A program made the position numbers and the translations under genes. Source: Streptomyces sp. H39-S7 (GTDB lineage: Bacteria; Actinomycetota; Actinomycetes; Streptomycetales; Streptomycetaceae). Taken from it: a stretch of DNA of 64,000 bases. A model generated the notes under the pieces. That model had not been told where the DNA came from and ran no database searches. It saw only the letters and a program-made list of their open reading frames with translations. Numbering within the stretch: position 1 is the first letter of the stretch; every line of letters begins with the position of its first letter. Where the stretch lies: contig NZ_JAPVLU010000005.1 in NCBI RefSeq assembly GCF_027158205.1, positions 1,251 through 65,250 of the forward strand, given 5' to 3'. This document shows positions 28,712 through 44,995 of the stretch, piece after piece.

Positions 28712-31636
28712 ATGCACGAGGCGCGGCGTCCCGCGGCCGTCCCCTACTACGAGGACCCCTCCCCCGGCAGCGGCGCGTTGCCACCGCGCGCCTGGTGGAG
28801 CACGTCGGACGCGCGCTACGTGAGCCTGAACGGGGCATGGCGGTTCCGGCTGGCGCCGACCGCCGACGCGCACGACGACGGCTTCGCCCGGCCGGAGTTC
28901 GACGCCACCCGCTGGGATCTGCTGCCGGTGCCCGCGCACTGGCCGCTGCAGGGCCACGGCTCCCCCGCGTACACGAACGTCGTCTACCCCTTCCCCGTCG
29001 ATCCGCCGCGCGTTCCGACCGAGAACCCGACGGGTGACCACCGGCGCGCCTTCGACCTGCCGGACGACTGGCCGGGTGGGGCGGCGCTGCTGCGCTTCGA
29101 CGGCGTGGAGTCGTGCGCGCGGGTGTGGCTCAACGGGATGGAGCTGGGCACGTTCCAGGGCAGCCGGCTGCCGGTGGAGTTCGAGGTCGGGGAGCTGCTG
29201 CGGCCGCGGGGCAACGTGCTGGCGGTGCGCGTCCACCAGTGGTCGTCCGGCAGTTACCTGGAGGACCAGGACATGTGGTGGCTCCCGGGGATCTTCCGGG
29301 AGGTGACGCTGATCGAACGGCCGGAGGGATCGGTCGCGGACTTCTTCGTGCACGCCGGCTACGACCACGTCACGGGCACCGGCACGCTGCGCGTCGACTG
29401 CGAGCCCGCCGGCAGCGTCAGCGTCCCGGAGTTGGACCTGGACCTGGCGACCGGGGAGAGCGCGACCGTGCCCGTCGAGCCGTGGTCCGCCGAGATCCCG
29501 CGCCTGTACGACGCCGAACTGGCCACGGAGGGCGAGCGGATCCCGCTCCGGATCGGCTTCCGGACGGTGGCCGTCGAGGACGGCGTGTTCAAGGTCAACG
29601 GCCGGCGGATCCTGCTGCGGGGCGTCAACCGGCACGAGTTCCATCCCGACCACGGCCGGGTGCTGGATCTGGAGACGATGCGGCAGGACCTGCTGCTGAT
29701 GAAGCGTCACAACATCAACGCCGTTCGCACCAGCCACTATCCGCCGCATCCGGCCTTTCTCGACCTCTGCGACGAGTTGGGTATGTGGACCGTCGACGAG
29801 TGCGATCTGGAGACGCACGGTTTCGAGAAGGTGGGCTGGCGCGGCAACCCGGTCGACGACGAGCGCTGGACCCCCGCGCTGCTGGACCGGGCAGCGCGCA
29901 TGGTCGAGCGCGACAAGAACCATCCGTCCGTCGTGATGTGGTCGCTCGGAAACGAATGCGGGACCGGTCGGGGGCTGTCGGCGATGGCGTCGTGGATCCG
30001 CGACCGCGACCCGGACCGCCCGATCCACTACGAGGGCGATCCGTCGTGCGCGGACACCGACGTGTACTCGCGGATGTACGCCGACCACGCCGAGGTCGCG
30101 CTCATCGGGCGGCGGAATGAACTCCCCCTCGCCGATGCCGAGTCGGACGCGAAGCGACGCACCCTGCCTTTCATCCTGTGCGAGTACGCGCACGCCATGG
30201 GCAACGGGCCCGGCGGGCTGAGTGAGTACCAGAAGCTCTTCGAGACCTACGAGCGGTGCCAGGGCGGCTTCGTCTGGGAGTGGATCGACCACGGGTTGCG
30301 GCAGCGCACCGGCTCCGGGGTGGAGTTCTTCGCCTACGGCGGCGACTTCGGCGAGGAGCTGCACGACGGCAACTTCGTCTGCGACGGGCTGGTCTTCCCC
30401 GACCGCACGCCGTCGCCCGGCCTGATCGAGTACAAGAAGGTCATCGAGCCGGTCAGGATCGACGGCGACAGCGCGGCCGGCACCGTGCGGATCACCAACG
30501 GGTACGACTTCGCCGACCTGTCGTCGCTGTCGTTCCGCTGGGCGTACGAGGTGGAGGGTGAGGCCGTCGACCACGGCGAGCTGGACGTCCCGGCTCTGGC
30601 GGCCGGCGCTGCCGTCGAACTGGAGCTTCCACCGGTGCCGGAAGGCAAGGGGGACGGGGAGGCCTGGTGGACGGTGCGGGCGACCCTCGCCGACGACACC
30701 GGGTGGGCGCCGGCCGGGCATGAGGTGGCCTGGGGGCAGTTCGCCGCGGCGCCGACCGCGCGCGCTGCCGTGTCGGCTGCGCCGCGGGCCCCGCGCCGCG
30801 CCGAGGGCGGCGTCGTCCTGCTCGGGCCCGGCACGTTCGACGCCGTCACCGGCGCGCTCAAGTACCTGGGCCACTTCGAGATCGCCGGACCGCCGCGGCT
30901 CGACGTGTGGCGCGCGCCGACCGACAACGACGCGGGTTCCGGACGGCACCCCGGCATTCAGCTGGACCGGCGGTGGCGGGAGGCCGGACTGCACCGGATG
31001 CGGCACCGCCTCGACGGGGTCGAGCTCGGCGCCGACACGCTGACCGTCGCCACCCGTGTCGCGCCGGCGGCCGAGGACCTCGCCCTGCGGACCGTCTACA
31101 CCTGGACCGCGACCGGCGAACGGCTGCGACTCACCGTGGACGTCACCCCGGAGGGCGACTGGGCCGTCCCGCTGCCGCGGATCGGGTTGCGGCTGGGCGT
31201 CTGCGGGAGCCTGGACGGCGTCGAGTGGTGGGGCGGCGGTCCCGGCGAGGCGTACCCCGACTCGCGGGCAGCGTCCCGGATCGGGCGGTACAAGAGCACG
31301 GTCGACGCGCTGCAGACGCCCTACGTCAGGCCGCAGGAGAACGGCGCGCGGGCCGACGTCCGCTGGGCACGGCTTCGTCGCGAGGACGGGCAGGGCGTGC
31401 AGGTCACCGGCGACCCGGACTTCTGGTTCACCGCGCGGCGCTGGACCGGGGAGCAGCTCGACGCGGCCGGCCACACCTACGACCTCGCGCCGTCCGGGAC
31501 GATCTGGCTCAACCTGGACCACGGCCAGCAGGGCATCGGCAGCGGCTCCTGCGGGCCCGGGGCCCTGCCGCAGTACTGGCTCACCGCCGCCCCGATGACG
31601 TTTTCCTTCACGTTCGGCATTCTGGAGACCCCATGA
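28712..31636 (+). CDS. lacZ: Glycoside hydrolase family 2 beta-galactosidase
   Basis: ATG 28712 follows GAGGAG; the 974-residue length fits LacZ-type GH2 enzymes. The order is a jelly-roll sugar-binding domain (SLNGAWRFRLAP... DQDMWWLPGIFREVTL), Ig-like GH2 domains, the TIM barrel and a C-terminal beta-galactosidase small chain (GGGPGEAYPDSRA). The acid/base Glu is E415 in VVMWSLGNECGTG and the nucleophile is E491 in FILCEYAHAMGNGPGG. GVNRHEFHPDHGR is the usual Mg2+/substrate loop. There is no signal peptide, so it is cytoplasmic. It lies between DUF2264 and a GNAT gene, with ATGA coupling to the latter. Confidence 0.94.
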   Translation: MHEARRPAAVPYYEDPSPGSGALPPRAWWSTSDARYVSLNGAWRFRLAPTADAHDDGFARPEFDATRWDLLPVPAHWPLQGHGSPAYTNVVYPFPVDPPRVPTENPTGDHRRAFDLPDDWPGGAALLRFDGVESCARVWLNGMELGTFQGSRLPVEFEVGELLRPRGNVLAVRVHQWSSGSYLEDQDMWWLPGIFREVTLIERPEGSVADFFVHAGYDHVTGTGTLRVDCEPAGSVSVPELDLDLATGESATVPVEPWSAEIPRLYDAELATEGERIPLRIGFRTVAVEDGVFKVNGRRILLRGVNRHEFHPDHGRVLDLETMRQDLLLMKRHNINAVRTSHYPPHPAFLDLCDELGMWTVDECDLETHGFEKVGWRGNPVDDERWTPALLDRAARMVERDKNHPSVVMWSLGNECGTGRGLSAMASWIRDRDPDRPIHYEGDPSCADTDVYSRMYADHAEVALIGRRNELPLADAESDAKRRTLPFILCEYAHAMGNGPGGLSEYQKLFETYERCQGGFVWEWIDHGLRQRTGSGVEFFAYGGDFGEELHDGNFVCDGLVFPDRTPSPGLIEYKKVIEPVRIDGDSAAGTVRITNGYDFADLSSLSFRWAYEVEGEAVDHGELDVPALAAGAAVELELPPVPEGKGDGEAWWTVRATLADDTGWAPAGHEVAWGQFAAAPTARAAVSAAPRAPRRAEGGVVLLGPGTFDAVTGALKYLGHFEIAGPPRLDVWRAPTDNDAGSGRHPGIQLDRRWREAGLHRMRHRLDGVELGADTLTVATRVAPAAEDLALRTVYTWTATGERLRLTVDVTPEGDWAVPLPRIGLRLGVCGSLDGVEWWGGGPGEAYPDSRAASRIGRYKSTVDALQTPYVRPQENGARADVRWARLRREDGQGVQVTGDPDFWFTARRWTGEQLDAAGHTYDLAPSGTIWLNLDHGQQGIGSGSCGPGALPQYWLTAAPMTFSFTFGILETP

Positions 31637-32238
31637 TCCGCCCCTACCGCCCCGCGGACCTTCCCGCGCTCTACGACATCTGTGTCCGCACCGGCCAGGA
31701 GGGCGGGGACGCGCGGCCGTTCTACGACGACCACGACCTGCTGGGAACGCTCTTCGCGGCGCCGTACGCGCGGCTGGAGCCGGAGCTGACCTTCGTCATG
31801 GACGACGGGCAGGGCAACGCGGTCGGCTACGTCCTGGGGACGGCCGACACTGCCACCTTCGTGAAGCGGTTCCGCGGCGAGTGGCTGCCCGAGGTGGCGG
31901 ACCGTTACCCGGCACCCGCCACCCTGGAGCCGACCACCCCGCACGAGATCATGGTGGACCTGCTGCACCGGCCGGAGCGGATGCTCGTGCCCGAGTTGAC
32001 CTCGTATCCGGCGCATCTGCACATCGACCTGCTCCCCGGCTACCAGGGAGCGGGCCACGGGCGGGCGCTGATGGAGGCCTTCCTCGCGGCGCTGGCCGCC
32101 GCGGGCGTCGCCTCGGTCCACCTGGGGATGGTCACGGCGAACGTCCGGGCCCGGCACTTCTACGACCGCATGGGCTTCCATGAGATCGCGGTGGCGGACC
32201 CGGGACCGCTCACCTACCTGGGGCGCGCCACCTCGTAG
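31633..32238 (+). CDS. GNAT-family N-acetyltransferase
   Basis: Its ATG overlaps the lacZ stop (ATGA). The 201-residue product starts MIRPYRPADLPALYDICVRT and has the acetyl-CoA-binding motif A in LHIDLLPGYQGAGHGRALME. Motif B follows as VHLGMVTANVRARHFYDRMG. This resembles O-GlcNAcase-associated or amino-sugar acetyltransferases near glycosidases, so an amino sugar or glycan fragment is a plausible substrate (inference). Its 3' end overlaps the converging metallo-hydrolase gene by ~25 bp. Confidence 0.9.
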   Translation: MIRPYRPADLPALYDICVRTGQEGGDARPFYDDHDLLGTLFAAPYARLEPELTFVMDDGQGNAVGYVLGTADTATFVKRFRGEWLPEVADRYPAPATLEPTTPHEIMVDLLHRPERMLVPELTSYPAHLHIDLLPGYQGAGHGRALMEAFLAALAAAGVASVHLGMVTANVRARHFYDRMGFHEIAVADPGPLTYLGRATS

Positions 32239-32668
32239 TCCTCCGCGCCGTCGGAACCGTCCGTATTGTCCGCAGCGTCCGCAGTGTCGACGCCCGCCGT
32301 GCTCTCCCCGGTGGCCGGGGCTTCGGGCGCGCCATCCGGTACGGCGGCGTCGGAGGCCACGGGTGCGTACTGCGGCCAGCCGCCCGCCGGCGGCACGGCG
32401 ACCGCGCGCCACCACCAGTCGTCGGCGAGATCGGCCGAGGGCTCGAAGGGGGCTCCCGGGCGTGGGGTGGCGATCTTCGCGCCCAGTTCCCTCGCCGCCG
32501 CGAGAGTGCCCTCGGCCGGGTCGGCCCACGGGTGCGGGGCGAGGTTGAACGTGCCCCAGTGGATCGGCAGCATCGCGCCGTGGGGTGTGCCGCCGGACAG
32601 GTCGACGTGCGCCCGCACGCCTTCCTCGGGCGTCATGTGGATGTCGGGCCAGATCCACACGTGTGGGG
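32214..32668 (-). pseudogene. UlaG-like MBL-fold metallo-hydrolase, 3' part, interrupted by prophage
   Basis: The minus strand encodes WPDIHMTPEEGVRAHVDLSG, then AMLPIHWGTFNLAPHPWADP and an acidic tail. These are the C-terminal hallmarks of UlaG-type metallo-beta-lactamase-fold hydrolases (the HWGTF His is a metal ligand). Upstream of the WPDIH residues the protein becomes non-homologous (MSNPNRWFQRVWIWDQSHIR...). This marks the point where phage DNA joins. The N-terminal half with the HxHxDH motif must lie at the far attR end, outside the window. Confidence 0.82.
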
Positions 32669-32800
32669 ACACAACTCTGTCCGCGTACAGATGTCGGAGG
32701 TCCAGAACCACGCTCGTAACCGTCCGTAGCGACGCGTGCGCGCGTATGTGGCTTTGATCCCAGATCCACACCCTCTGGAACCAACGGTTAGGATTCGACA
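32640..32800. other. Prophage left attachment junction (attL region)
   Basis: Chromosomal coding similarity ends around 32655-32668 and the phage integrase starts at 32801. The 12-mer CCAGATCCACAC occurs at 32649-32660 (the junction) and again at 32760-32771 in the phage side. The exact crossover dinucleotide cannot be set without attR or an empty attB. Confidence 0.7.
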
Positions 32801-34432
32801 ATGTTCGAACAGGAGTCCCAGAGCGAGGCCGCGGTCTTGCTTGAAGACAACCCGGGGTATCCCGTTCTCGGCCTGGAATGGTCCGTAGCCGAGCGCACAG
32901 AGCTTGATGACCTCATGCGGCGCATGGCGGCGCTGCCCGCCGAGGCCCCCAGGGCGTTGCTATCCATCCGCCTGTCAGTGCTGACCGACGAAACCACGTC
33001 CCCGATCCGGCAGGAACTCGACCTCTACCGGTTCGCTCTAAACCGTGGTTGCCGTGTCGTCGGTGTCGCACGGGACCTGAACGTCAGCGCCACCAAGGTC
33101 CCGCCGTGGAAGCGTCCAGAGCTGGGCGATTGGATCAACAACCGCGCGCCCGAGTTCGACCAGATTCTGTTCTGGAAGCTGGATCGCTTCGTCCGGCGCA
33201 TCTCCGATCTGCACCTGATGATCGAGTGGTGCAAGGAGTACAGCAAGGTTCTTGCGGCCGACAAGGACCCCATCGACCTTGACAGCGCCTACGGCGAAAT
33301 GATGGTCACGATGATTGCGGGTATGGCCCGCATTGAGGCCGCGAACACCGGCGTTCGTCTTGAGTCGCTGTGGAAGTACGCCCGCACCACCGAACGTTGG
33401 CTCATCGGCAAGCCGGTCTACGGCTACACCACCGAGGAAACCCCACAGGGCCGCAGGCTCGTCCAGGACCCACAGAAGGTCAGAGTTCTCCGCTGGATCT
33501 TCGCCATGCTCAAGCGCGGCAGGTCCATGTACCGGATCACCCAGATAGTGAACCGCGCTGGCATACCCGCGCCGAGCGGCGGCAAGTGGTATGCGCGCAA
33601 CCTGATGTCAATCCTGACGAACCCGGCCCTGAAAGGTGTGCGGACGATCCGGCCCCCCAAGGCCAAGAGCAAGGACATCTCGCGCATCGTCTACGGCACC
33701 GACGGCAAGCCCTTGCAGCTTGCCCCGCCAATCTTCACTGACGACGAGTTCAACGAGATGCAGGCGATCCACGCGCACAACAGCAAGCACGGTAGCCGTG
33801 AGTCCAAGAAGAAACTGTCCCGCTTCCTCGGTGTCGTGAAGCACGGCCACTGTGGCGAGAACATGTACAAGCACACCACCCGGAAAAAGCGCAAATCCGG
33901 CAAGATCGACGTGTACAACACTCTGCGTTGCTCGTCCTACACGCGGGAACCGTGCGGCGGCCCCACTCACCCGGACGCTGACGCTGTGTACGCCAGCCTC
34001 GCCGATACCGTCCTTGAGCAGTTGGGTGACTACGAAGTCATCCACCGCCAGTACACCCGTGGTGCGGAGAACCTGGCACGGGTCAGTGACCTTGAGGCGT
34101 CGATCAAGCACTACATGGATGGCCTCGAACCTGGGGGGTCGTTCGCAGTGGGCGGCTTCATCCAGAGGCAGGCGACAGAGACGCTTCAGCAGCTCGGTGC
34201 CGAGCTGTCGGCGATCGACCCTGACACCACCCAAGACCGGTGGGAGTACAAATCCAAGGGTGTGACCTACGGGGAGCACTGGGCGACCATGGGCATGGAC
34301 CAGATGGAAGACGATCTGGTTCGGGCCGGCATCACGTTCGTGGTCTACGCGGAACATGCGGACCTGCTGATACCTGACGACGTGAAGACACGCCTGGTGG
34401 TGCGGGACGACTACTTCAAGAAGCGCCTATAA
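32801..34432 (+). CDS. int: Large serine recombinase (phage integrase)
   Basis: The 543-residue product has an N-terminal resolvase/invertase domain: SIRLSVLTDETTSPIRQELD with the catalytic Ser in RLSVLTD, then FWKLDRFVRRISDLHLMIEW. A recombinase domain follows (LIGKPVYGYTTEE, IVNRAGIPAPSGGKWYARNL), then a zinc-ribbon domain (VVKHGHCGENM ... LRCSSYTREPCGG). A coiled-coil-containing C-terminus typical of serine integrases ends it. It is the first phage gene at the left junction and is followed by a strong terminator. It inserts the phage into an UlaG-like hydrolase gene. Recombination uses a Ser-linked 2-bp staggered break. Confidence 0.95.
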   Translation: MFEQESQSEAAVLLEDNPGYPVLGLEWSVAERTELDDLMRRMAALPAEAPRALLSIRLSVLTDETTSPIRQELDLYRFALNRGCRVVGVARDLNVSATKVPPWKRPELGDWINNRAPEFDQILFWKLDRFVRRISDLHLMIEWCKEYSKVLAADKDPIDLDSAYGEMMVTMIAGMARIEAANTGVRLESLWKYARTTERWLIGKPVYGYTTEETPQGRRLVQDPQKVRVLRWIFAMLKRGRSMYRITQIVNRAGIPAPSGGKWYARNLMSILTNPALKGVRTIRPPKAKSKDISRIVYGTDGKPLQLAPPIFTDDEFNEMQAIHAHNSKHGSRESKKKLSRFLGVVKHGHCGENMYKHTTRKKRKSGKIDVYNTLRCSSYTREPCGGPTHPDADAVYASLADTVLEQLGDYEVIHRQYTRGAENLARVSDLEASIKHYMDGLEPGGSFAVGGFIQRQATETLQQLGAELSAIDPDTTQDRWEYKSKGVTYGEHWATMGMDQMEDDLVRAGITFVVYAEHADLLIPDDVKTRLVVRDDYFKKRL

Positions 34433-34437
34433 CAAGA

Positions 34438-34471
34438 GGAACCCCCCGCGCCTCTCGGCGCGGGGGGTTCC
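34438..34471. terminator. Strong terminator after integrase
   Basis: An almost perfect hairpin (GGAACCCCCCGCGC / GCGCGGGGGGTTCC, loop CTCTCG) immediately follows the integrase stop. Confidence 0.85.
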
Positions 34472-34474
34472 TGC

Positions 34475-34543
34475 TTAGCGTTCCTTGATCGTGATCAGCT
34501 CGCGCTCTCCATTGGAGCTGACTCGGTATACGAATATTCTCAT
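34475..34543 (-). CDS. Possible 22-aa phage microprotein
   Basis: A leftward ATG ORF (MRIFVYRVSSNGERELITIK, then ER) lies at the end of the early operon. Its YRVSSNGER stretch recalls YRVGPNGER in the 50-aa phage gene at 44840-44992, which is the only support for it being real. Confidence 0.3.
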   Translation of the reverse strand: MRIFVYRVSSNGERELITIKER

Positions 34544-34621
34544 CAGTTCACCAACCAGGCTCAACGGCGGTACCCGCCGGATCGGTTGCGCACTTTGGCC
34601 CGGCGTCTCCGCCGGGGGCGC

Positions 34622-35584
34622 TCAAAAGGAAGCGGATCGGTAGGGCGTCAAATCGACAGGAGCCGCCTGCTTGGCCTTGTCCTTGCTGCGGATGCTGGAT
34701 ACGTACGCTGCATGGGTCTCGACTCCGTTCTGCATGAGCACCTGGACCACCTCCGCGTGACTCATCTCGGGCTGGCGGGAAATCACCAGTCGGATAGCCG
34801 ACGAGACAGGCAGAGCCGACAGCGGCGGTTCCCAGTAGGAATCTGCGGCCGAGTCGGGCACCGGGAACATGGGGGCCGGCCCATCGGGCAGCACACCCCA
34901 CTCATGGTCACCGTCGATGGACGCTAGGCCGGCGACACTCTTGCGCCGCTTCAACCGCTCCACAAGGTGGGCCTCAGCCTTGACGGCCTCAGGCCCTTCA
35001 AGGCCGTGCTGTGCGGCGTCCACGGCCTTGGAGAGTCGCAAGGACAGACGCGCTGCCTTCCGGTTCGAGGTAACCCGAGACAGCTCATCAGCAAGGCGTA
35101 CAGCCCTGTCAGTTGCACGATTCCGAGCGATAGCCGCGGAGTCCGCGCCCCGCGTGCCCAGGCCGAGCCGTGAAACCATCCGCTCCCGGATCTCGACCCA
35201 GGCCCGCTTGAGAAGCCCATCCGCCTTCGTCTCGTGGAGAGCGTCCAACGACAGAAGGAAGTGCAGCAGGACGCCGGCCAGGCCCGGCCCGAGTGCTACC
35301 CGCATGATGCCTCCCCCGCCTCCTGAAACCGAGAACGCGGGGATCGCTTGTAGGGCGACCAGGCCGTAGCTGAACAGAAGTGAAGCCTTGGTTCGAGTAG
35401 CCCAGGCATGCAGTACCAGGGCGACCACGGCCAGTTCTGCGACTCCGGTGAGAACGCCTCGCTCTGTGGTGTCGGTAATGCCCAGATGGCCCCCGACGTA
35501 GCGGTAGCTGGTGTTAGCGCTCATCGCCAGCGCGATCAGTGCTGGGAGTACCAGGCCGGCGGTTGCGACCCTCTCCTTGCTCAC
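34622..35584 (-). CDS. Phage multi-pass membrane protein with long cytoplasmic tail
   Basis: GTG 35584 has GGGGGAA upstream. The first ~115 residues hold about four predicted transmembrane helices (ATAGLVLPALIALAMSAN... GVAELAVVALVLHAWATR... LGPGLAGVLLHFLLSLDALH). The remaining ~200 residues are helical and charged, ending SHAEVVQVLMQNGVETHAAY, a helix-turn-helix-like stretch. The layout recalls Streptomyces plasmid DUF2637/spread proteins. It is the last gene of the leftward early operon, with a GC hairpin at 34597-34615 just beyond. Role is unknown; a membrane or superinfection function is possible. Confidence 0.6.
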   Translation of the reverse strand: MSKERVATAGLVLPALIALAMSANTSYRYVGGHLGITDTTERGVLTGVAELAVVALVLHAWATRTKASLLFSYGLVALQAIPAFSVSGGGGGIMRVALGPGLAGVLLHFLLSLDALHETKADGLLKRAWVEIRERMVSRLGLGTRGADSAAIARNRATDRAVRLADELSRVTSNRKAARLSLRLSKAVDAAQHGLEGPEAVKAEAHLVERLKRRKSVAGLASIDGDHEWGVLPDGPAPMFPVPDSAADSYWEPPLSALPVSSAIRLVISRQPEMSHAEVVQVLMQNGVETHAAYVSSIRSKDKAKQAAPVDLTPYRSASF

Positions 35585-35645
35585 GTTTCCCCCATGGAAA
35601 AGGGCCGGTGAGGATGTCCCACCGGCCCTGCTGTCGTCGTCTTTC

Positions 35646-36068
35646 CTACTCGTCCCAGCTCAGGATCTTGGCTTCCATGCCGGTTTCGGTTCTCCAAACG
35701 ATGCGGTGCACTCCTGCCGCCTCAAGACGAGGCAAACACCGGTAGCAGGGTGCTCGGGTGACGTAGACCGTTCCCCCTGCCAAGTCCTCCCGGCGCGCGT
35801 GGATCAACAAATTCTCTTCGGCATGCAGTGCTACGCAGTTGCCGTAGTCGGCCCCGGCCGGTATTTGGTCGTAGGTCAGCCGACCCCGAGGACAGAAGCC
35901 TTCAAGGCAGCCGGCCTTGCCCGGCACCGTGCCGTTGTAGCCGGTCATGACCACGCGGTGTTTCGTGTCCAGCAGGACCGCCCCGACCTGAGACCGGGTG
36001 CAGTCCCCCCGAGTTGCTACGGCGTCGGCTATCCCGAGTGCCCAGTCATCCCAGCGTGGACGGCTCAG
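35646..36068 (-). CDS. Deoxycytidylate/cytidine deaminase-like enzyme, apparent CTG start
   Basis: The protein carries the zinc deaminase motifs: HAEEN (His ligand and catalytic Glu) in CVALHAEENLLIHAR, and PCYRC in VTRAPCYRCLPRL. Conserved N-terminal sequence (SRPRWDDWALGIADAVATRG, then CTRSQVGAVLL) extends upstream of any ATG or GTG. The frame is closed by a TGA a few codons further up. The only suitable codon is CTG at 36068-36066, which overlaps the upstream stop as CTGA. It probably supplies dUMP/dU precursors for phage DNA together with the phage ribonucleotide reductase. Confidence 0.82.
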   Translation of the reverse strand: MSRPRWDDWALGIADAVATRGDCTRSQVGAVLLDTKHRVVMTGYNGTVPGKAGCLEGFCPRGRLTYDQIPAGADYGNCVALHAEENLLIHARREDLAGGTVYVTRAPCYRCLPRLEAAGVHRIVWRTETGMEAKILSWDE

Positions 36069-36322
36069 AACGGCGGCACCTCGGGATCTATGTGATCAGC
36101 AGCCGCTGAGGCTGCCCAGTCCCGATCCGGCTCCAGCACCCCGTTCAGCTTGAGAGAAGCGATCTCCGATCGGATCTCCTCGGCCAGACAGTGAGCGATG
36201 GCGTCCCATGCCACGGCAACTATCTCGGCAAGCTGGTTCTGACTCAGGGCTGGTAGGCCCAACCAGTCCGGGATGCTGTAGACCGTCTGGGTAACGCTGG
36301 TGGGTACATGCTCCGCTCTCAC
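36065..36322 (-). CDS. Small phage protein (85 aa)
   Basis: The GTG at 36322 overlaps the upstream stop as GTGA. The product starts VRAEHVPTSVTQTVYSIPDW and has a helical middle (QNQLAEIVAVAWDAIAHCLA). It is part of a translationally coupled string of early genes. Family is unknown. Confidence 0.65.
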   Translation of the reverse strand: MRAEHVPTSVTQTVYSIPDWLGLPALSQNQLAEIVAVAWDAIAHCLAEEIRSEIASLKLNGVLEPDRDWAASAAADHIDPEVPPF

Positions 36323-36567
36323 GCTGCCCCCTTTTCGATCTCCTCGGCTGCGTCGTTCAGCGCCTCCCAGGTCCAAAAGCATGCATCGCAGCACTTCGGC
36401 GGCTCTGGCTGCGGGCGAACCTTGTGTACGGCGTCACGCGTGGCTACCTGACTGATGAAAGTGAGTAGGTCGATCACCAGGTCAGCCGCCAAGACCTCCA
36501 GTTCCGGCCGGAAGCACAGTTTCAGGAGACGGAGGGATGCAACGTAGTCCTCTTCGGATTCGATCAT
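36319..36567 (-). CDS. Small phage protein with Cys motif (82 aa)
   Basis: The ATG at 36567 overlaps the stop of the upstream gene (ATGA). The sequence MIESEEDYVASLRLLKLCFR is followed by a PPKCCDACFWTWEAL segment, a possible metal-binding CCxxC. It is coupled to both neighbours. Function is unknown. Confidence 0.65.
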   Translation of the reverse strand: MIESEEDYVASLRLLKLCFRPELEVLAADLVIDLLTFISQVATRDAVHKVRPQPEPPKCCDACFWTWEALNDAAEEIEKGAA

Positions 36568-36797
36568 TCGTCGTCGCCCTCATCGTTCTCGAACGGAATA
36601 GGGGAAATCTCAAGCGTCCAGTACTCAGCCGCAAAGGTTTTGGCGAGATCGGCCGGTACACCGTTGACGATCGCTTGTGTGTAGACAAGGCCGGCAACCT
36701 GGGCTACGAGTACAGCCGCCTGTGCCCGCTGTTTCGTCAGTGCGTCATTGAAATCCTGATTGAGGCCCTGGATCATCTCTTCGAATCCCTCGTCCAT
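36564..36797 (-). CDS. Small phage protein (77 aa)
   Basis: ATG 36797 overlaps the preceding stop by one base (TGATG). The product MDEGFEEMIQGLNQDFNDAL with KQRAQAAVLVAQVAGLVYTQ is mostly helical, with an acidic C-terminus (FENDEGDDE). No family is recognised. Confidence 0.65.
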   Translation of the reverse strand: MDEGFEEMIQGLNQDFNDALTKQRAQAAVLVAQVAGLVYTQAIVNGVPADLAKTFAAEYWTLEISPIPFENDEGDDE

Positions 36798-36946
36798 CAC
36801 AGCACCCTCTTTGCGTCGTTGTCCTCTGCGCACTCGAAACACATGCCGGTTTCAGCGCCATCTAGGTCGTATAGCCCGTTAGCATCGTTTTGTTCGCACC
36901 ATTCACAGTCCAGAGGCCCGTCCGCGTCGTCGTACTCTTCATCCAT
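36797..36946 (-). CDS. Small zinc-ribbon-like phage protein (49 aa)
   Basis: ATG 36946 overlaps the DNA polymerase stop (TGATG). The protein MDEEYDDADGPLDCEWCEQN carries two CxxC pairs, CEWC and CFEC, ~22 residues apart, a zinc-ribbon arrangement. It may bind nucleic acid or protein during phage takeover (inference). Confidence 0.7.
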   Translation of the reverse strand: MDEEYDDADGPLDCEWCEQNDANGLYDLDGAETGMCFECAEDNDAKRVL

Positions 36947-38772
36947 CAGTGCTTCGATTCCTCCAGGTCCAATATTGACCCCCACGAACGCTTACCGATC
37001 TCACCGTCAGCAGGCACGAGCAAACCCTTGAAGGTGAATTCCATGATCTGGGCGGCTTGCTCGGTCAGTTCCGCTGCGCGTTCTTTCGGGAAGCTGAAGA
37101 CAATTTCGTCGTGAATGACCAGACGCATATGAGGAGTGAACCCAGCGGCGTCGAGAAGTAGCACTGCCCGAGCGGTGATGTCCCGGGCCGATGACTGGAT
37201 GTAGTAGTTCAGGGCCGCGTACGGGCGATCCTTGTCCACCGGCAGGCGTCGGCCGGTGGCCGTGTAGATGTAGCCGGTCCGCCTGGCCTCATCCATGAGC
37301 CTGTTCGACAAGGTCTTGGTGCCGGGGTACGCCTCCCAGAAAGCCTTCACGGCCTTCTTGGCGTCGTCCTCGGGGATGTCCCATTGGGTAGACACGGCGT
37401 TCCAGCCTCCGCCAAAGCAGACCGTGAAGTTCGTTCCCTTCCCAGCCTTTCGCTTGGGGTGCTTCTCGACTCCTTCAGGCATTGGCCCGAAGGCCGCTAT
37501 AGCCGTAAGGTTGTGCAGATCCTTGTCGTGGTAGAAGGCGTCCAACATCGTCGGGTCACCGGATGCCGCAGCCAGTACGCGGAGTTCCATGTTTCCGAAG
37601 TCGATGGAAGCCGAGACGTGCTCAATTTCTGCCAGGCAGGACGATCGGACGTATCCGGTGCCGGCCGGAAGGGTCTGAGCTGCCAAGCTCCCGTTGATAG
37701 TCCAGCGCGCAGTTCTGGCCTGAAGAGGGTTCACCGAAGGATGGATGCGGTTCTGCGAGTCCATCCCGTTGATGATGTTCTCAAACCACGTCTTCCGCTT
37801 CTTCGTCGCGGATTTGGCTTTCAGAATCGCATCGGCCAGCGGGTGATCAATCTTGGCAAGGATCTCCTCACCGGTCTTGATTACGCCTTTGGCTGTCTTC
37901 TCGGTGAGCCGAATACCCTCCCTGGCGAAGGCTTCCACGATCTGAGCACCAGATCCCAGAAGTTCAATGCCGAAGGAGCGGACAACCGCCATCCATTTGG
38001 ACTCTTCGATTTTCAGCTCGGCGATCCGAGCCTCTACGTACTCGACGTCCACCAGGTAGCCGGCCCGCTCCATCCTGGCCGTGACGTGCGCCAAGCGGTG
38101 TTCCCATGCGAACAGACCCCTCTGCCGGGAACGGGCCGGGATCTTCGGAAAGGTGATGCGGAACAGCCGGAAGGCGAAAATCGGGTCCATGCCCGCGTAC
38201 AGCAGATACTCGCGGTCGAACGTCTCGACAGTTGGCCAGATCTCTTCCTTCTTGACCTTGTAGCGCTTGGCTATTTTGGTCATGGATCCCTTGACCTCTT
38301 CGGCCAGGGTCCGGTCAATGTAGAACTTGACCAGCTCTTCCAGCTTGAGCCCCGGACCGGCCTCCTTGACCTGCCGAGGGTCAACGAGGTGGGCTGAAAT
38401 TTTGGTGTCCAGCATCTTGGGCGCAAGCTCTTCCAGCGTGACGCCAAGGGTGGACTCGACCACATGCTGATCGAACGTGCCATTGTGCGCTACAAGGCGT
38501 TGTGCGTACCGCAGTGCCCACTTGACGGCTTCGCCGAACTCGGGGTTGATCTCAACCGGGAGCACCCAAGCCTCGGTGGCGTTGCCGAACTGTGCGAGGC
38601 GGATTCGGAACCCCCGGTCCGCGTTCCACCAATCAAGACCGGTGGTCTCCGTGTCGAACCCCATGACAGGGTTGGTTTCTACGAAGTCGATGAACGGGCC
38701 CAGGTCCCAAGTCGTCTCGCAGACGTGGATCTTGACTATCTGATTCTTGATTTTGCATTCAAGGTCGATCAT
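36946..38772 (-). CDS. polA: Phage DNA polymerase I (family A) with 3'-5' exonuclease domain
   Basis: The 608-residue protein starts at ATG 38772, with GGGGGAGG just upstream. The N-terminal exonuclease has the first acidic motif in VMGFDTETTGLDWW and a later YAGMDPIFAFRL (ExoIII-type). The polymerase domain shows motif A SIDFGNMELRVLAAASGD, the O-helix region KRKAGKGTNFTVCFGGG and motif C LVIHDEIVFSFP. Motif A has FGN where SQI is usual (DYSQIELR), a common variation in actinophages. There is no 5'-3' exonuclease domain. It replicates phage DNA. It lies in the middle of the leftward operon, coupled to the small genes downstream. Confidence 0.94.
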   Translation of the reverse strand: MIDLECKIKNQIVKIHVCETTWDLGPFIDFVETNPVMGFDTETTGLDWWNADRGFRIRLAQFGNATEAWVLPVEINPEFGEAVKWALRYAQRLVAHNGTFDQHVVESTLGVTLEELAPKMLDTKISAHLVDPRQVKEAGPGLKLEELVKFYIDRTLAEEVKGSMTKIAKRYKVKKEEIWPTVETFDREYLLYAGMDPIFAFRLFRITFPKIPARSRQRGLFAWEHRLAHVTARMERAGYLVDVEYVEARIAELKIEESKWMAVVRSFGIELLGSGAQIVEAFAREGIRLTEKTAKGVIKTGEEILAKIDHPLADAILKAKSATKKRKTWFENIINGMDSQNRIHPSVNPLQARTARWTINGSLAAQTLPAGTGYVRSSCLAEIEHVSASIDFGNMELRVLAAASGDPTMLDAFYHDKDLHNLTAIAAFGPMPEGVEKHPKRKAGKGTNFTVCFGGGWNAVSTQWDIPEDDAKKAVKAFWEAYPGTKTLSNRLMDEARRTGYIYTATGRRLPVDKDRPYAALNYYIQSSARDITARAVLLLDAAGFTPHMRLVIHDEIVFSFPKERAAELTEQAAQIMEFTFKGLLVPADGEIGKRSWGSILDLEESKH

Positions 38773-38799
38773 GGGCACCTCCCCCGGGTCATACGTGAA

Positions 38800-38976
38800 T
38801 TAAAGGCCCACCTCGCAGAGGTGATCGCGCGTAGCTTGAATCAAATCAGTGATGGTCACTTCGTTGCCGAGGCAGCAGCCGCACCCACCTGTAGCGATCA
38901 GGGCGCCACAAAGTAGGCATTGAAGGTCGACCGCTCCGCCCTCCATGCCGATTACTTGTGCGTGGTCGGGGTTCAG
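38800..38976 (-). CDS. Small Cys-rich phage protein, probable CTG start
   Basis: The product LNPDHAQVIGMEGGAVDLQC then LLCGALIATGGCGCCLGNEV has CxxC and CxCC motifs suited to zinc binding. A perfect AGGAGG lies seven bases upstream of the CTG at 38976. The first in-frame ATG (38946) has no Shine-Dalgarno. A CTG start giving 58 residues is therefore preferred. Function is unknown. Confidence 0.6.
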   Translation of the reverse strand: MNPDHAQVIGMEGGAVDLQCLLCGALIATGGCGCCLGNEVTITDLIQATRDHLCEVGL

Positions 38977-39017
38977 GGGAATCCCTCCTGTTGGACGGGG
39001 GCCAGGCCGAAGCCTGG

Positions 39018-39033
39018 CCCCTAGTAGCAAGTT
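39018..39033 (+). promoter_or_regulatory. Stoperator-like repeat 1
   Basis: CCCTAGTAGCAAGTT between the 39052 and 38800 genes, next to a GGCCAGGC/GCCTGGCC hairpin; preceded on the minus strand by a run of seven T. Confidence 0.6.
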
Positions 39034-39051
39034 TCACCTGAAAAAAAGGGC

Positions 39052-39576
39052 TTACTTGGCCTTGTAGGAGCCGTCCTTCTGGCGCCACAGGGGTTCGCAC
39101 TGGTCCGACTTCTCACGGGCCTGGCAGAACAGGGCCGCCCAGTCGCTCTTCTCGACCAGCTTGCGGCCGTGCTCGCAGTCGTCTGCCTCGCCGGCCGGAG
39201 TTGACTTGGTGGTCACCTTGCCGTTTTCGAACCGCTTGGGGGCCGAGCCAGCCGCAGCAGAGCCGCCCTTGTACTGGGTCCGGGTGTACTCGGCCGCCTT
39301 CGCGGTCAGGTCGATCAGGCCGACGCTCTTCATCGCGGTCAGCAGCTCGGCACCGCGCTGGGCAGTCTCCTCGGCGCTATGGCCGTAGACCCTCGGAGTC
39401 AGCCACTCGGCATCGAATCCGTTTCCCGCCTTGAGGGTGAAACCGATGACGAATGGAGCCGGGCCAAGCAGGGTGCTCTCAACGGTGGGGGTGGTCACAG
39501 GCGCCTCCAGGGCAGTCGGGGTCTTCTCGGGCTCATCCCATGGAGAACGAGAATCGAACGGGTCGGGGTAAGTCAT
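39052..39576 (-). CDS. Phage early protein, unknown (possible ssDNA-binding type)
   Basis: ATG 39576 follows GGAAGGAAG. The 174-residue protein begins MTYPDPFDSRSPWDEPEKTP and has a central beta-rich part (PAPFVIGFTLKAGNGFDAEW). Its C-terminus has a possible zinc cluster (DDCEHGR ... ALFCQAREKSDQCEPLW). It sits between the reductase and polymerase genes where several actinophages carry a conserved protein of the same look. Its role in replication is inferred from position only. Confidence 0.6.
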   Translation of the reverse strand: MTYPDPFDSRSPWDEPEKTPTALEAPVTTPTVESTLLGPAPFVIGFTLKAGNGFDAEWLTPRVYGHSAEETAQRGAELLTAMKSVGLIDLTAKAAEYTRTQYKGGSAAAGSAPKRFENGKVTTKSTPAGEADDCEHGRKLVEKSDWAALFCQAREKSDQCEPLWRQKDGSYKAK

Positions 39577-39618
39577 CCGTGCTTCCTTCCCTCTGTTAAT
39601 CAGTGTGACAGCATTTCG

Positions 39619-39632
39619 CCCTAGTAACAAGT
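39619..39632 (+). promoter_or_regulatory. Stoperator-like repeat 2
   Basis: CCCTAGTAACAAGT between the reductase gene and the 39576 start. Confidence 0.6.
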
Positions 39633-39651
39633 GGTGGCGTGGTGAAACAAA

Positions 39652-41682
39652 TCACACGGGGCATCCACCGCGTGCACAGAATTCCTCGTAAGAGGTGTCG
39701 GTCACGTTGATTCCGAGAGCAAATGCCTTCTCCAGGTACACATCCTTGGAGATACGCTCATATGGAGCTTGGTCCCGGCTCATCTCCGGAAAGATGGTGG
39801 ACCCCTTGAGGACCGGCATGTAGTCGAGAAGGGCTTCCGCTACCTGCTCCACGGTGTACTTGGCGGGGTCCACCGAGGCCGTATACGAGACGGCTTGGTC
39901 CGCCCAGTACTCCTGATAGAGAGCCTGGACAGACAGCATGTCCCGAAGGTCGAGCTGTCCGGTGTGCTGTACGTACTCGTCGTCCAGTACCTGACTGACC
40001 AACGGGTCCATGGTGGGGATTGAGACAACCATGGTGTTGGCCGCGTACATGCACGGCTCCACCTCGTAGCCCTTAGCCCGGTACTCCTCGACCTGCTCCA
40101 CCTCCCCCGGCTCCAGCATGGAGAAGCGGAGACGGCGGACGAAGTAGTCCGCGAACGGCGCGTGGATACCTTCTCCCGAGGCGCCGGCCAACTTGGAAAT
40201 CGTCCCGGTGGGGGCGATGACCCGTGTCTTGATTGGCCGGGGAATCCGTAGCTCGTTGGCGTACTCTGCGGACGCCTGGTCCACGATCACCGCCAGCTCC
40301 ACCAGGTCCAAGATGACGCCTCGGTCAGTCGGGGCGTCGGCGTACCTGATCCCCTGCTTGGCGAGGTAGTCAGCGAAACCGAAGTGGCCGACACCGATCC
40401 GGCGATACCTGGCGATGGCATCGGCAGACTTCGTGTCGGCGACGGCCGCGAACGTGCCGCGGATCAGGTACCGCGTCATCAGCCGGTGAGCTTCGTGAAG
40501 TGCCTCGTAGTCCACCACCCCCGAGATGTCTACGAAGGCACCGAGGTTCACGCTGCCAAGGTTGCACGGCTCCCACGGAGTCAGCGTTGCTTCGCCGCAG
40601 GGGTTCGTAGTGAAGGTGCCGTCGACTTCGCCGTCAGCCGTCAGACTGCTGTTCCAGAAGCCCGGCTCGCCGTTGCGCAGAGCGCCTTGGGCCAGCTTGC
40701 CCAGGACCATTTGGGCCTGTGCGGCCTTCCAGCTCTCCTTGGTCTCCTGGCCGGTCGCGTAGGCGATGAACTCGGTGTCCACCTCCACGCTGAGGTTGGT
40801 GGTCCAGTGCTTAGACATGTCCTGCTTGGAGTACAGGAAGTCTTCGATCTGGGCGTCAGCCCAATGCATGATCGACATGCGGGCGGAGCGGCGGACGCCG
40901 CCGGACACGATGCACTGGGCGATCTCGTGGTCAATCTCCATGGCATCCACGCCAGACAGAGGGAAGGGCGCCGCCTGGGTCAAAATCCACCCCACCCGGA
41001 TGAGCATCTGGGCAAAGGGTGCCGGCCCGCTGGCTGTGCCACCGAAGGCCCGCAGCGGAGCACCCTTCCGTCGGACGCGGGTCACGTCGTACACCCGGTC
41101 CTCGTGCTGGGTACGCGGATCGTGGGCCGTGGTGATCAGGTCACCGAGGGCTGAGGCCCAACCGTCCCTGGAGTCCTCCACGCCGAAGGCGCCGAACCAG
41201 GTGTGCGCGTACTCCGAGCTGAGGAGGCCCGCGGCCTTCATGTCCTCGTAGTCGGGGTGGTCTGGATCGCACACGATGTGGACGCGAACCGCGTTCTCGA
41301 CCTCGGGGAAGTCGCGGAGATAGCTGTTGCTGTAGTTCGAGCCGACACCGCCACCCTCCGCAAGCCGCAGCAGCGTGAAGGTGAAGTGTTCCGCGGGGCT
41401 GGCCGCGTCCCACCCGGCGGCCCAGCAGTTGTTCAGGGCGTAGTCGTTCACACCTGAACTCTTGAGGTGGCGACCAGCAGGCAGCGCCTTGAACGACTCG
41501 ATCAGGGCGACCAGAGCGTCACGCTCGCCCAGCTCGATGTACCGGGCCGGCACCAACTTGAGGTTGCCATCGACCACGCGGCGCACCGTCTCGGGCCATG
41601 TCTCAAGTTCGCCGTTGGGCTTCTCTCGGCGGTAGGTCCGTTCATACACAATGCGTGCGGTGTCAGTGGAGAAAACAGCCAT
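39652..41682 (-). CDS. nrdJ: Class II (adenosylcobalamin-dependent) ribonucleotide reductase
   Basis: The 676-residue monomeric type has the conserved FTTNPCGEATLTPWEPCNLG with the active-site CGE, FALGINVTDTSYEE near the end and the C-terminal redox pair in CARGGCPV. An early Cys occurs in YALNNCWAAGWDA. RVIAPTGTISKLAGASGEGI is the P-x-GT-S phosphate-binding loop. It converts ribonucleotides to deoxyribonucleotides using host B12, as in L5-like phages. ATG 41682 lies after AGGAGA. It is probably part of a nucleotide-supply module with the deaminase. Confidence 0.94.
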   Translation of the reverse strand: MAVFSTDTARIVYERTYRREKPNGELETWPETVRRVVDGNLKLVPARYIELGERDALVALIESFKALPAGRHLKSSGVNDYALNNCWAAGWDAASPAEHFTFTLLRLAEGGGVGSNYSNSYLRDFPEVENAVRVHIVCDPDHPDYEDMKAAGLLSSEYAHTWFGAFGVEDSRDGWASALGDLITTAHDPRTQHEDRVYDVTRVRRKGAPLRAFGGTASGPAPFAQMLIRVGWILTQAAPFPLSGVDAMEIDHEIAQCIVSGGVRRSARMSIMHWADAQIEDFLYSKQDMSKHWTTNLSVEVDTEFIAYATGQETKESWKAAQAQMVLGKLAQGALRNGEPGFWNSSLTADGEVDGTFTTNPCGEATLTPWEPCNLGSVNLGAFVDISGVVDYEALHEAHRLMTRYLIRGTFAAVADTKSADAIARYRRIGVGHFGFADYLAKQGIRYADAPTDRGVILDLVELAVIVDQASAEYANELRIPRPIKTRVIAPTGTISKLAGASGEGIHAPFADYFVRRLRFSMLEPGEVEQVEEYRAKGYEVEPCMYAANTMVVSIPTMDPLVSQVLDDEYVQHTGQLDLRDMLSVQALYQEYWADQAVSYTASVDPAKYTVEQVAEALLDYMPVLKGSTIFPEMSRDQAPYERISKDVYLEKAFALGINVTDTSYEEFCARGGCPV

Positions 41683-41697
41683 GCGGTATGTGTCTCC

Positions 41698-41919
41698 TTA
41701 GAAGGGGGGAAGAGTCGGCAGCTTGGCGAACATCGCCTCGTTGAGGAAGTCCACAAGGGGCTTCAAATCTGGAGAGGAAAGGAGGAATTCGTAGGAACCA
41801 GTGTCGTCGGCGATGTGCACATACGTCTTCGACGTGTCGCAATCGTCGTAGACCACGTCAATCGTGACTTGCTTGTCTACGCCGACTTTGCGCGTGTACT
41901 GCTTACGCGTTTCGATCAT
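41698..41919 (-). CDS. Small phage protein (73 aa)
   Basis: ATG 41919 overlaps the end of the sigma-like gene. The product MIETRKQYTRKVGVDKQVTI is beta-rich (IDVVYDDCDTSKTYVHIADD) with a Leu/Pro-rich end. Function is unknown; position indicates co-expression. Confidence 0.6.
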   Translation of the reverse strand: MIETRKQYTRKVGVDKQVTIDVVYDDCDTSKTYVHIADDTGSYEFLLSSPDLKPLVDFLNEAMFAKLPTLPPF

Positions 41920-42472
41920 TCCAACTCCCCTTCCGATGGTTGCGGTTCATGGCGATGGCCAGGGCATCCACAGCCCGGTTGCACATCTTGCGCTCGGCGT
42001 CGTTCTTCGGCGGTATGCCATAGACGTGAATGCGCATGAGAACTTCCCGGTACCGGTCGGTGAGCTTTCGCAGGCCGGCCGAAGCGTCGATTCTGGCCGA
42101 CGTGATGTTGTCGGTGATCCGGCACCGACTCAGGTCGTCTTCTCTGCCGATGACGGAGGAGATCTCCTCATCGGTGTAGATGAAGGACTTGAGAACACCC
42201 CGGGCCTCGTCGGGCGTGTAGTAGTACCGGTCGTCTGTGAGGTCCCGGTAGTTCTGCTCCTTTGAGGCGTAACTCTTGCCTGCCTTCCAGCAGACCTTTC
42301 GGATGAACTCCTCGTCGCCAGACTTCGGTCCGATGTACTCGGCCTGTTCGGCGATGTGAACCATAATCTCTTGGTGAACGTCGTCAGCCTCAACGACTTC
42401 CCATCGGGCGGCTAGCTCCCTCGAAACCTTGTGAGCAATGTCGTTGACACGCTCCCAGTCCATCCCCGTCAC
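41903..42472 (-). CDS. Sigma-factor-like phage regulator
   Basis: GTG 42472 overlaps the upstream stop (GTGA). The 189-residue protein begins with a region-2-like helical part (VSRELAARWEVVEADDVHQE). It has a C-terminal part that looks like a region 4 helix-turn-helix (ASAGLRKLTDRYREVLMRIH). This resembles the ECF-like proteins in L5-type phage early operons. A role in redirecting host polymerase is inference. Confidence 0.6.
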   Translation of the reverse strand: MTGMDWERVNDIAHKVSRELAARWEVVEADDVHQEIMVHIAEQAEYIGPKSGDEEFIRKVCWKAGKSYASKEQNYRDLTDDRYYYTPDEARGVLKSFIYTDEEISSVIGREDDLSRCRITDNITSARIDASAGLRKLTDRYREVLMRIHVYGIPPKNDAERKMCNRAVDALAIAMNRNHRKGSWNDRNA

Positions 42473-43263
42473 TTTGCAAACCTTCCGTTGATTCGTTTGA
42501 CCTCACCAAAGCGCCTGCCTTCCACGACGAAGGAACCGTCGTCCTCGACCGGAACGGCCTGAGGAGTTGCGCCGTACTTCCCCGCGTAGAGCAGCCCAAA
42601 TCCCTTCTGCCAGTTAGCTGGGCCACCCTTGAGGTAACTGGCCTTCTTGACGTCCATCAGGTGGCCGACCTCAAACCCGTAGATCGTCTTCAACTTCCCC
42701 CCGAACCCCGTGGACTCGGGGGAAACGGCCAGCCGGTGAGTGTGACCCATCACCAGAGACACCCCCGCCTTCTTGGCTTTTGCCGCAGCCGTTCGGCCAG
42801 CCACGTTGTTCAGGCCCGGCGACTCGTGGCCGTGGATCGCAACCCAGCCGGGGGCCGGCTGGTAGTAGGGCTCCAGCTTGGTAATGCCGAACCCCTTGAA
42901 GTCCAGGAGGTTTTCGAACCGGTAGTGGGTGTCCTCTGCCGACAGAGCCGGGGCACGGCTCGCAAGGTACTTTCGCGGGCGCTCATCATGATTGCCTTCC
43001 AGCACGCCAACTGGCCCGTCGTAGACGGCCCGCAGCGGGGCAAGGAAGTTGGCTTTCGTGTACTCGGAGTCCCGTAGCACTCCGTTCTCGAACTCGATCT
43101 TTGTCCCGGTGTGCCAGCGGGACGGAGTGGGGTAGTCGACGAGGTCACCAATCTGAATGACTTCGTCCGGCTGGTAGTCACCGATGAATTCAATGACGTT
43201 CCGGACTGCCCTCTTGTCCTCGAAAGGCGCCTGCACGTCCGACACCACTACGATGCGTTTCAA
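42469..43263 (-). CDS. Calcineurin-like metallophosphoesterase
   Basis: Start TTG 43263 (preceded by GGGGGAAGG) gives LKRIVVVSDVQAPFEDKRAV. The metal motifs are DVQAPF (for DxH), GDLVDY, GNHDE and VAIHGHESPG ... VMGHTHRLA. The protein is 264 residues, as usual for phage members near primase genes. Substrate is unknown; possible roles are phosphodiester or nucleotide hydrolysis. It is coupled to the sigma-like gene. Confidence 0.88.
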   Translation of the reverse strand: MKRIVVVSDVQAPFEDKRAVRNVIEFIGDYQPDEVIQIGDLVDYPTPSRWHTGTKIEFENGVLRDSEYTKANFLAPLRAVYDGPVGVLEGNHDERPRKYLASRAPALSAEDTHYRFENLLDFKGFGITKLEPYYQPAPGWVAIHGHESPGLNNVAGRTAAAKAKKAGVSLVMGHTHRLAVSPESTGFGGKLKTIYGFEVGHLMDVKKASYLKGGPANWQKGFGLLYAGKYGATPQAVPVEDDGSFVVEGRRFGEVKRINGRFAK

Positions 43264-43284
43264 TTCAGCCTTCCCCCTAAACAA

Positions 43285-43311
43285 GGGAGGGGCGGCATGT
43301 TCCGCCCCTCC
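43285..43311. terminator. GC-rich hairpin between early genes
   Basis: GGGAGGGG ... CCCCTCCC forms a strong stem between the 51-aa gene and the phosphoesterase gene. It may attenuate leftward transcription. Confidence 0.6.
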
Positions 43312-43323
43312 CGGACCGACCAT

Positions 43324-43479
43324 CTACTGAGGGATAGTGATGGCCTCGTAGTCGGCCCCGTCCGCACTGTTCAGATCTAGGTACGGTGTTCCGAAGTCCC
43401 CGTCATCGAAGGCGAATCCGTCATCGAAAGCGGCCCGCATAGCCGCTTCGATTGCCTTCACGTGTTCTGCAAGAGTCAT
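43324..43479 (-). CDS. Small acidic phage protein (51 aa)
   Basis: ATG 43479 is preceded by GGGGGATGA. The product MTLAEHVKAIEAAMRAAFDD then GFAFDDGDFGTPYLDL is strongly acidic. It fills the space between the DUF3310 gene and a terminator and keeps coding composition throughout. Function is unknown. Confidence 0.6.
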   Translation of the reverse strand: MTLAEHVKAIEAAMRAAFDDGFAFDDGDFGTPYLDLNSADGADYEAITIPQ

Positions 43480-43480
43480 T

Positions 43481-44874: not shown

Positions 44875-44992
44875 CGTTCGGACCTACCCTGTAGACGGTC
44901 ACGGGAAAGTCGTAGCGCCGATAGGCACTGAGGTTCGTTGATCGGTTGCCGATCCACTCTCGCGTGTCCATCTTGATCGTCAGACGAGACAT
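44840..44992 (-). CDS. Small phage protein (50 aa)
   Basis: ATG 44992 lies three bases after the endonuclease VII stop, with a GAGGAAT upstream. The product MSRLTIKMDTREWIGNRSTN, LSAYRRYDFPVTVYRVGPNG overlaps the primase zinc-finger start by 35 bp. Beta-rich and basic; function is unknown. Confidence 0.6.
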   Translation of the reverse strand: MSRLTIKMDTREWIGNRSTNLSAYRRYDFPVTVYRVGPNGERTRMEAVNR

Positions 44993-44995
44993 TCC

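Follow-up and report, generated by a model that had tools for sequence, protein, structure and literature searches.

The window, i.e., the whole stretch of 64,000 nucleotides that was analysed (C102:1251-65250 of a 9.5-Mb genome in 146 contigs, labelled G000), raises the question of what becomes of a host enzyme when a phage integrates within the coding region of its gene. An earlier note had proposed that a serine-integrase prophage lies inside a metallo-hydrolase gene, that the hydrolase homology ends abruptly at the left prophage end, and that the gene is interrupted. The first two proposals held, and the prophage was found to be 57 kb long with its integrase gene at 32801-34432; the third did not hold in this form.

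The two ends of the prophage

On the minus strand, the hydrolase homology runs from the stop codon at 32214 up to the motif TGGCC (GGCCA on the plus strand, 32647-32651), where it ends, and phage DNA lies beyond. This stretch (32214..32651) is the stranded original 3' part of the host gene, i.e., the displaced tail. In the tree it is found among intact host tails, and its open frame extends into the phage DNA as far as a TTG at 32801. The host flank contains a plus-strand gene for a GNAT-like acetyltransferase (31634..32238), which is located downstream of the hydrolase gene also in relatives (L024, L054, L056, L058).

The large serine integrase (543 aa) is encoded on the plus strand at 32801..34432. 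It has the Resolvase catalytic domain (PF00239, 7.8e-20), the Recombinase domain (PF07508, 6.7e-14) and the zinc ribbon (PF13408, 1.2e-4), the last with 22.8 bits and thus under the cut-off of 25.3. The left 31 kb of the prophage are in the window (32649..64000), and it runs on to C102:90694, which by subtraction gives 56,797 bp between the crossover points. The gene scan covered 20 of the 66 listed ORFs, one of which had no match. PHROGs matches revealed the terminase large subunit, portal, scaffold and major head protein (52099..56588, plus strand), the major tail protein (58641..59606, plus strand) and a region that contains, among other genes, the replication genes for a DNA polymerase, a ribonucleotide reductase, a phosphoesterase and a DnaB-like helicase (36946..46586, minus strand). 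Minor tail and endolysin matches were also found between the crossover points, and structural, packaging, lysis and replication genes are all present between the att sites, as in a temperate tailed phage. Among 50,697 phage records, from which those of the window's own genome were possibly excluded, there was no near match to an 11.5-kb stretch of the prophage. An array of 17 tRNA genes is located inside the prophage (window 49241-51060). A tRNA attachment site was considered and rejected; the sole tRNA gene of the window outside this phage cluster is 10 kb away.

The earlier note had made its case dependent on the hydrolase 5' part at the opposite prophage end, and this part was indeed found, 57 kb away (G000:C102:90.3-91.6k). 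When the stranded tail was used as a DNA query against its own genome, it retrieved itself and one further match of 76% identity at this place. This match belongs to a minus-strand ORF of 422 aa (L002:1298-2566, equal to C102:90294-91562), which opens with the host 5' part and continues through GAYSEFWP and EIHTNCTPGEPCDCKPDPGL into a second WPDIHM... tail. The second 3' part is diverged and phage-borne, and it is joined in frame to the host 5' part. The gene is thus split by the prophage, as had been proposed, but it is not simply interrupted, because the prophage brings an in-frame replacement 3' part at attR and the reading frame is kept.

The hydrolase matches PF12706 (4e-52), and the closest solved structure by sequence is the NAPE-hydrolysing phospholipase D (NAPE-PLD; PDB 4qn9, E 1.8e-49). 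The label "UlaG-like" of the earlier note was loose, as the NCBIfam UlaG lactonase model matched at 2.9e-5 and 23 bits, against a cut-off of 306. The alignment to 4qn9 revealed conserved metal-ligand positions within the PF12706 domain, i.e., HxHxDH in the N-terminal part and IHWGTF of the tail, which aligns over H343 of NAPE-PLD (residue counted by the analyst). We take H343 to be a zinc ligand, and the metal-ligand roles of the other aligned positions are likewise assumed. Since the tail spans this residue, a gene without the tail is predicted to be dead. Unlike NAPE-PLD, the protein is bacterial, and its last part is phage-borne in lysogens.

Attachment sites and the small gene beyond the tail

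The attP site was reconstructed from both halves in seven lysogens or remnants; G027 and Streptomyces sp. NRRL F-5727 (truncated or ambiguous) as well as G001, G015 and G267 (no stranded tail) were omitted. It is an imperfect inverted repeat with its centre one base before the end of TGGCC, and the arms match at 8-10 of 12 positions in the seven sites. Inverted repeats around a central dinucleotide are the layout of short-core serine attachment sites; the palindrome scores of single sites were modest in four of the seven (0.038-0.06 in shuffling), and the other three were at <=0.0015. In the window, the predicted crossover dinucleotide is the GG at 32647..32648, in the centre of the inverted repeat (arms 9/12; a fraction of 0.0015 of 2000 shuffles was as good). 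The attL site was placed at 32622..32676, with the host half at 32622-32646, the shared core, and the phage half from 32652, the outer limits being the analyst's choice. The attL and attR of G000 have about 7 bp in common, TCTGGCC. The attP of S. uncialis reads CTGTGGTTCTGGCC^CAAGAACCACACGGACTGTACC.

The predicted attB would be inside the coding region of the hydrolase, at the Trp-Pro codons just 5' of the conserved IHM. In the hydrolase frame, the right arm of attP reads WPKNHTDCTP, and this is the start of the linker at the joint, which is 14 or 22 aa long. Translation of the attachment site would account for the presence of similar linker peptides in lysogens whose tails are of different origin. 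The att-arm DNA pattern TGGCCNAAGAACCACACNGA was found in 4 of 297 family genomes and its reversed control in none, and all four matches are in frame in this hydrolase gene; the number is a floor, because G000 and other chimeras with variant arms escape the pattern. Among the four, G283 coincides in its coordinates with Streptomyces sp. NBRC 110468, and G267 is a new chimera, in which a second tail was absent at E 1e-8.

Repeats of the att-arm motif (CCAGATCCACAC, CCAGAACCAC) were seen by eye between attL and the integrase gene (32650-32661, 32702-32711 and 32760-32771), and they may be integrase binding sites. A second palindrome in the viral contig L005 resembles them. Immediately 3' of the integrase gene a GC-rich hairpin followed by a few T was noted, also by eye (window 34438-34473), a possible terminator.

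Behind the tail, across attP from the integrase gene, an ORF of 66 aa occupies the place of gp52, the RDF gene of phage phiJoe, and its orientation matches. The product and gp52 share 24% identity over 58 aa, a weak similarity (pairwise E 0.055); the ORF is a likely candidate for the RDF gene. Its start overlaps the tail stop (ATGA or GTGA) in G000, G013, G031 and G027, the own-genus chimeras that retain it, and a small gene starts 1-2 nt after the tail stop in L005 and L083. A coupling of its translation to that of the hydrolase can be conjectured. In a more distant relative without a spare tail, a small ORF adjoins the integrase gene (L007:2627-2959), which looks RDF-like by eye.

Chimeric hydrolase genes in other genomes

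Each of the 35 genus genomes contains one hydrolase match at E <=1e-60. The joint was read in 30 of them. In 24 the gene has no insertion, and GAY..xWP runs straight into DIHM, EIHM or DVHM; six contain a chimera with a linker and the second-type tail (G000, G013, G031, G027, G015, G001). In G006, G025, G008, G014 and G029, in which the joint was not read, the match to the N-terminal part extends to residue 293 and is immediately followed by a single tail match, an arrangement compatible with an intact gene. The empty site in a related strain, which had been named as a check, is thus present. The nearest one is in G007, where the N-terminal part is 95% identical and an intact gene is located beside the same GNAT gene. 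The idea that the chimera is an unrelated second hydrolase was rejected, based on the single match per genome at this threshold and on the host neighbours kept around the gene. More distant hydrolases (44-48%) are also present in the named genomes and are not involved here.

The stranded original tail is retained in G000, at about 2.7 kb in G013, at 7.6 kb in G031 and, truncated, at 6.6 kb in G027; in G001 and G015 none was found at E 1e-10. In G013 and G027 the small gene after the tail was the only further gene of the own phage that was recognised, and in G031 it was accompanied by a few more matches. The host GNAT and beta-galactosidase genes of G015 follow within 6.5 kb; the beta-galactosidase gene of G001 is 14 kb on. 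Altogether 12 chimeras were found, six in the 35 genus genomes and six in other Streptomycetaceae. The frame is open in all 12, and the linker has 22 aa in six and 14 aa in the other six. Three of them lack a stranded tail (G001, G015, G267), and therefore the replacement can become permanent.

An alignment of three related integrases was used to scan named genomes, and seven loci were obtained. Five integrases have 62-77% identity (Streptomyces sp. NRRL F-5727, sp. NBRC 110468, S. cylindrosporus 7R015, S. philanthi 23Af2 and S. uncialis DCA2648), and in these hosts a hydrolase tail adjoins the integrase gene and a full-length chimera with a 14-aa linker is present elsewhere in the genome. In S. 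caeruleatus and S. eurocidicus (46-48%) there is no tail beside the integrase gene and the hydrolase gene is intact. Over all loci, a tail adjoins the integrase gene in 8/8 with an integrase identity of at least 62% (the window, L005, L061, L065-L069) and in 0/9 judgeable ones below 60% (L007, L009-L014, L070, L071); no probability is attached to this difference, because the loci are related and the cut was set post hoc. L006 and L015 were not judgeable, their ends being too near the integrase gene. A portal homologue between both ends was found in S. uncialis (ends 56 kb apart) and in S. philanthi (46 kb apart, portal in two frames). The S. cylindrosporus interval contains none at E 1e-15, and a distant one is located outside it; none was found in NRRL F-5727 and NBRC 110468, where both ends are on different contigs. 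The portal thus appears to link the interval to this kind of phage in only two of the five named lysogens.

The metagenomic viral contig L005 (50 kb, integrase 78%) contains the small gene, the tail, an attP-like joint and the integrase gene in a row, an arrangement that would be expected of the excised, free phage. In L061 (52 kb, integrase 74%) a tail without linker adjoins the integrase gene, and next to it is the pentapeptide-repeat gene that marks the right prophage end in G000. Either L061 has an attP with an attB-like right arm, or a second element has inserted in an attB-like site of the spare tail (attL). The pentapeptide-repeat-like genes, recognised by eye, are at L002:219-902 and L061:4992-5768 and are 64% identical.

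Further arrangements were seen at single loci. In S. cylindrosporus the tail at the integrase side and the chimera are 210 kb apart (G039:C12:132.5-343.6 kb). A TraG/TraD coupling protein is encoded about 15 kb from the integrase gene (L105, G039:C12:134400-154399; PF12696, 1.8e-32), and an NlpC/P60 protein closer to it. This may be a large conjugative-type element that uses the same integration module. NRRL F-5727 (G037) has three hydrolase tails on three contigs (C26:66173, C6:200187 and C23:73607; L077, L080 and L086), and that of L086 has the linker and no hydrolase 5' part; this might reflect a rearrangement or the presence of a second element. The intact gene of G018 (L039) has no linker, and its tail groups with the 22-aa-linker tails; it could be either their source or a seamless replacement.

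Origin of the tails and fate of the target gene

The tail tree contained 47 tails. One duplicate row was omitted, G267 was found later, and the motif filter removed two displaced tails, that of G031 with IHWCTFN and the truncated one of G027. Five 14-aa-linker tails are on one side of a branch together with L005, L061, L065, L068 and L086 (support 100/99). The six 22-aa-linker tails are among the host tails and form one group (99/88) with that of the intact G018 gene; the spare tails thus belong to separate groups. Seven displaced tails were included, six adjoining an integrase gene and that of G013 in its decayed prophage. Five of them cluster with host tails (G000, G013, NBRC 110468, S. cylindrosporus, S. 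uncialis), as would be expected of displaced host DNA. The other two, in S. philanthi (L068) and NRRL F-5727 (L065), are of the phage type with GC3 values of 0.89-0.90, and therefore the host genes were probably replaced earlier in these strains.

The base composition also differs between the parts of the chimeras. In G000, GC3 is 0.70 in the spare tail versus 0.96 in the host part. Spare tails have values of 0.67-0.80 in G000, G013, G031, G027 and the five 14-aa chimeras, and host parts 0.95-0.98 where computed. In G001 and G015 the tail values are 0.98 and 0.96, as if ameliorated. The median dN/dS is 0.138 for the 22-aa-linker tails (15 pairs), 0.218 for the 14-aa and phage tails (21 pairs), 0.410 for the stranded tails (10 pairs) and 0.368 for intact host tails (55 pairs of a chosen set, 11 of 26 rows), all rough values because many dS are near or above 1. 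The spare tails look to be under purifying selection. The stranded tails are close to the intact host tails, and thus there is no clear decay. Any selection on the tail could be limited to the chimera in lysogens, or it could have acted on host copies in the past. Among the 50,697 phage records, with the same possible exclusion of the own genome, the spare-tail protein matched only two records of Acinetobacter phages (41%, annotated as beta-lactamase).

The best explanation, which is considered very probable, is that a temperate phage carries a spare in-frame hydrolase tail beside attP, restores its target gene upon serine-integrase integration, and has this tail kept by selection. The integrase would target an attB inside the coding region of the conserved NAPE-PLD-like gene, and the phage attP would be adjoined by a diverged copy of the remaining part of the gene, whose open frame extends across the right attP arm. 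Recombination by this integrase at the central GG/CC would join the host 5' part, the attP arm, the linker and the phage tail to a full-length chimera in the lysogen, and would at the same time strand the host tail beside the integrase gene; excision would be the reversal. The chimera is presumably an active enzyme, and selection would keep the spare tail because it spares the lysogen the loss of this enzyme. Upon decay of the prophage the chimera would stay, and the linker would be its scar.

Four other readings were weighed against this explanation. The phage tail might alter the activity or specificity of the enzyme beyond preserving it, i.e., lysogenic conversion. It is 58% identical on the protein level to the displaced host tail, and the 22-aa linker is within the metallo-hydrolase domain, but the tails resemble those of related hosts, the shared motif residues are kept and there is no sign of directed change, so that this reading is unlikely. 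That the form with the linker represents an old variant of the host gene, from which a phage captured both tail and linker, would fit G001 and G015, which have the linker, a host-like GC3 and no stranded tail. However, the first ten residues of the linker are the attP arm in translation and are found again in phages whose tails belong to another clade, and the arm differs in G001 and G015, as expected of an ageing scar; an old variant is thus quite unlikely. The same degree of doubt applies to a passenger relic, acquired by aberrant excision and carried without benefit. Imprecise excision is established as a ready source of host DNA beside attP, but the spare tails have low dN/dS values, the frame is kept in 12/12 chimeras, both linker lengths are multiples of three, and two distinct tail sources share a similar attP-arm peptide. 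A plain disruption that leaves the lysogen without the enzyme, as had been supposed at first, has precedents in the accessible parts of PMC8092301 (three serine-integrase sites in M. abscessus within ORFs that are disrupted) and PMC4701971 (gene disruption by all 29 serine-integrase ICE insertions), but with an in-frame full-length chimera at attR in G000 and in 11 other genomes it is highly improbable.

The most fitting description of the locus is gene-restoring integration in a variant form, in which the integrase is of the serine type and the attachment site is coding. In icd-type integration, known from phage 21 and e14, attP carries a replacement 3' part and the target protein gene stays whole. 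The same would apply here, as attP carries a replacement part of the target and the frame is open across the new joint. In contrast, icd-type elements have tyrosine integrases and long attP/attB identity, whereas G000 has a serine integrase and a short core of about 7 bp without extended identity; a diverged tail and an in-frame insertion that starts with the attP arm are further differences. In the available portion of PMC10111431, icd is mentioned and the rule of replacement sequences is stated in the context of tyrosine integrases.

Several features are shared with phiJoe (Camvirus joe; NC_054674.1), as far as described in the available text of PMC5311408, i.e., a large serine integrase (46.5% identical), an imperfect inverted-repeat attP with a central GG, and the location of attP between the integrase gene and a divergent small gene, which in phiJoe is that of the RDF. 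However, in phiJoe a distance of 74 bp separates attB from a radical-SAM gene end, whereas the predicted attB here is inside the hydrolase gene, and phiJoe has no replacement tail between attP and gp52, where about 400 bp of host-like coding sequence are found here. With Bxb1 in groEL1 and other serine-integrase insertions the locus shares an attB inside an ORF and a short core, but in the accessible parts of PMC8092301 and PMC4701971 those are described as ORF-disrupting, and the rumA elements as exchanging the 3' end with a change of frame.

The partial literature search, with most subscription papers outside its reach, returned no report of this hydrolase as a target nor of the restoration of a protein gene by a serine integrase. 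To our knowledge, the hydrolase is not a target of other Streptomyces serine-integrase systems. The suggestion of the earlier note that the target is novel agrees with the passages seen of PMC12924846 and PMC5311408 on Streptomyces attB systems, in which radical-SAM genes are the only targets named.

A more far-reaching reading, which is speculative and rather unlikely, is that the spare tail wires excision to the host enzyme. As the small gene starts on the tail stop, the host hydrolase promoter would then drive the chimera and subsequently the excision factor by translational coupling. Integrase gene, attP and tail would together form a portable cassette that repairs and senses its target, in phages as well as in the conjugative-type element of about 210 kb.

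Taken together, the locus points to a serine integrase that spares its target gene, a role usually credited to tyrosine integrases, and to an attachment site that is translated as part of the protein. For actinomycetes, it provides a predicted set of attB, attP and integrase at a gene that is matched in 35/35 genus genomes, and vectors based on the integrase gene, attP and the tail might integrate without loss of the target gene. It is also a case of phages that have repeatedly exchanged the C-terminal part of a host enzyme, with scars left behind.
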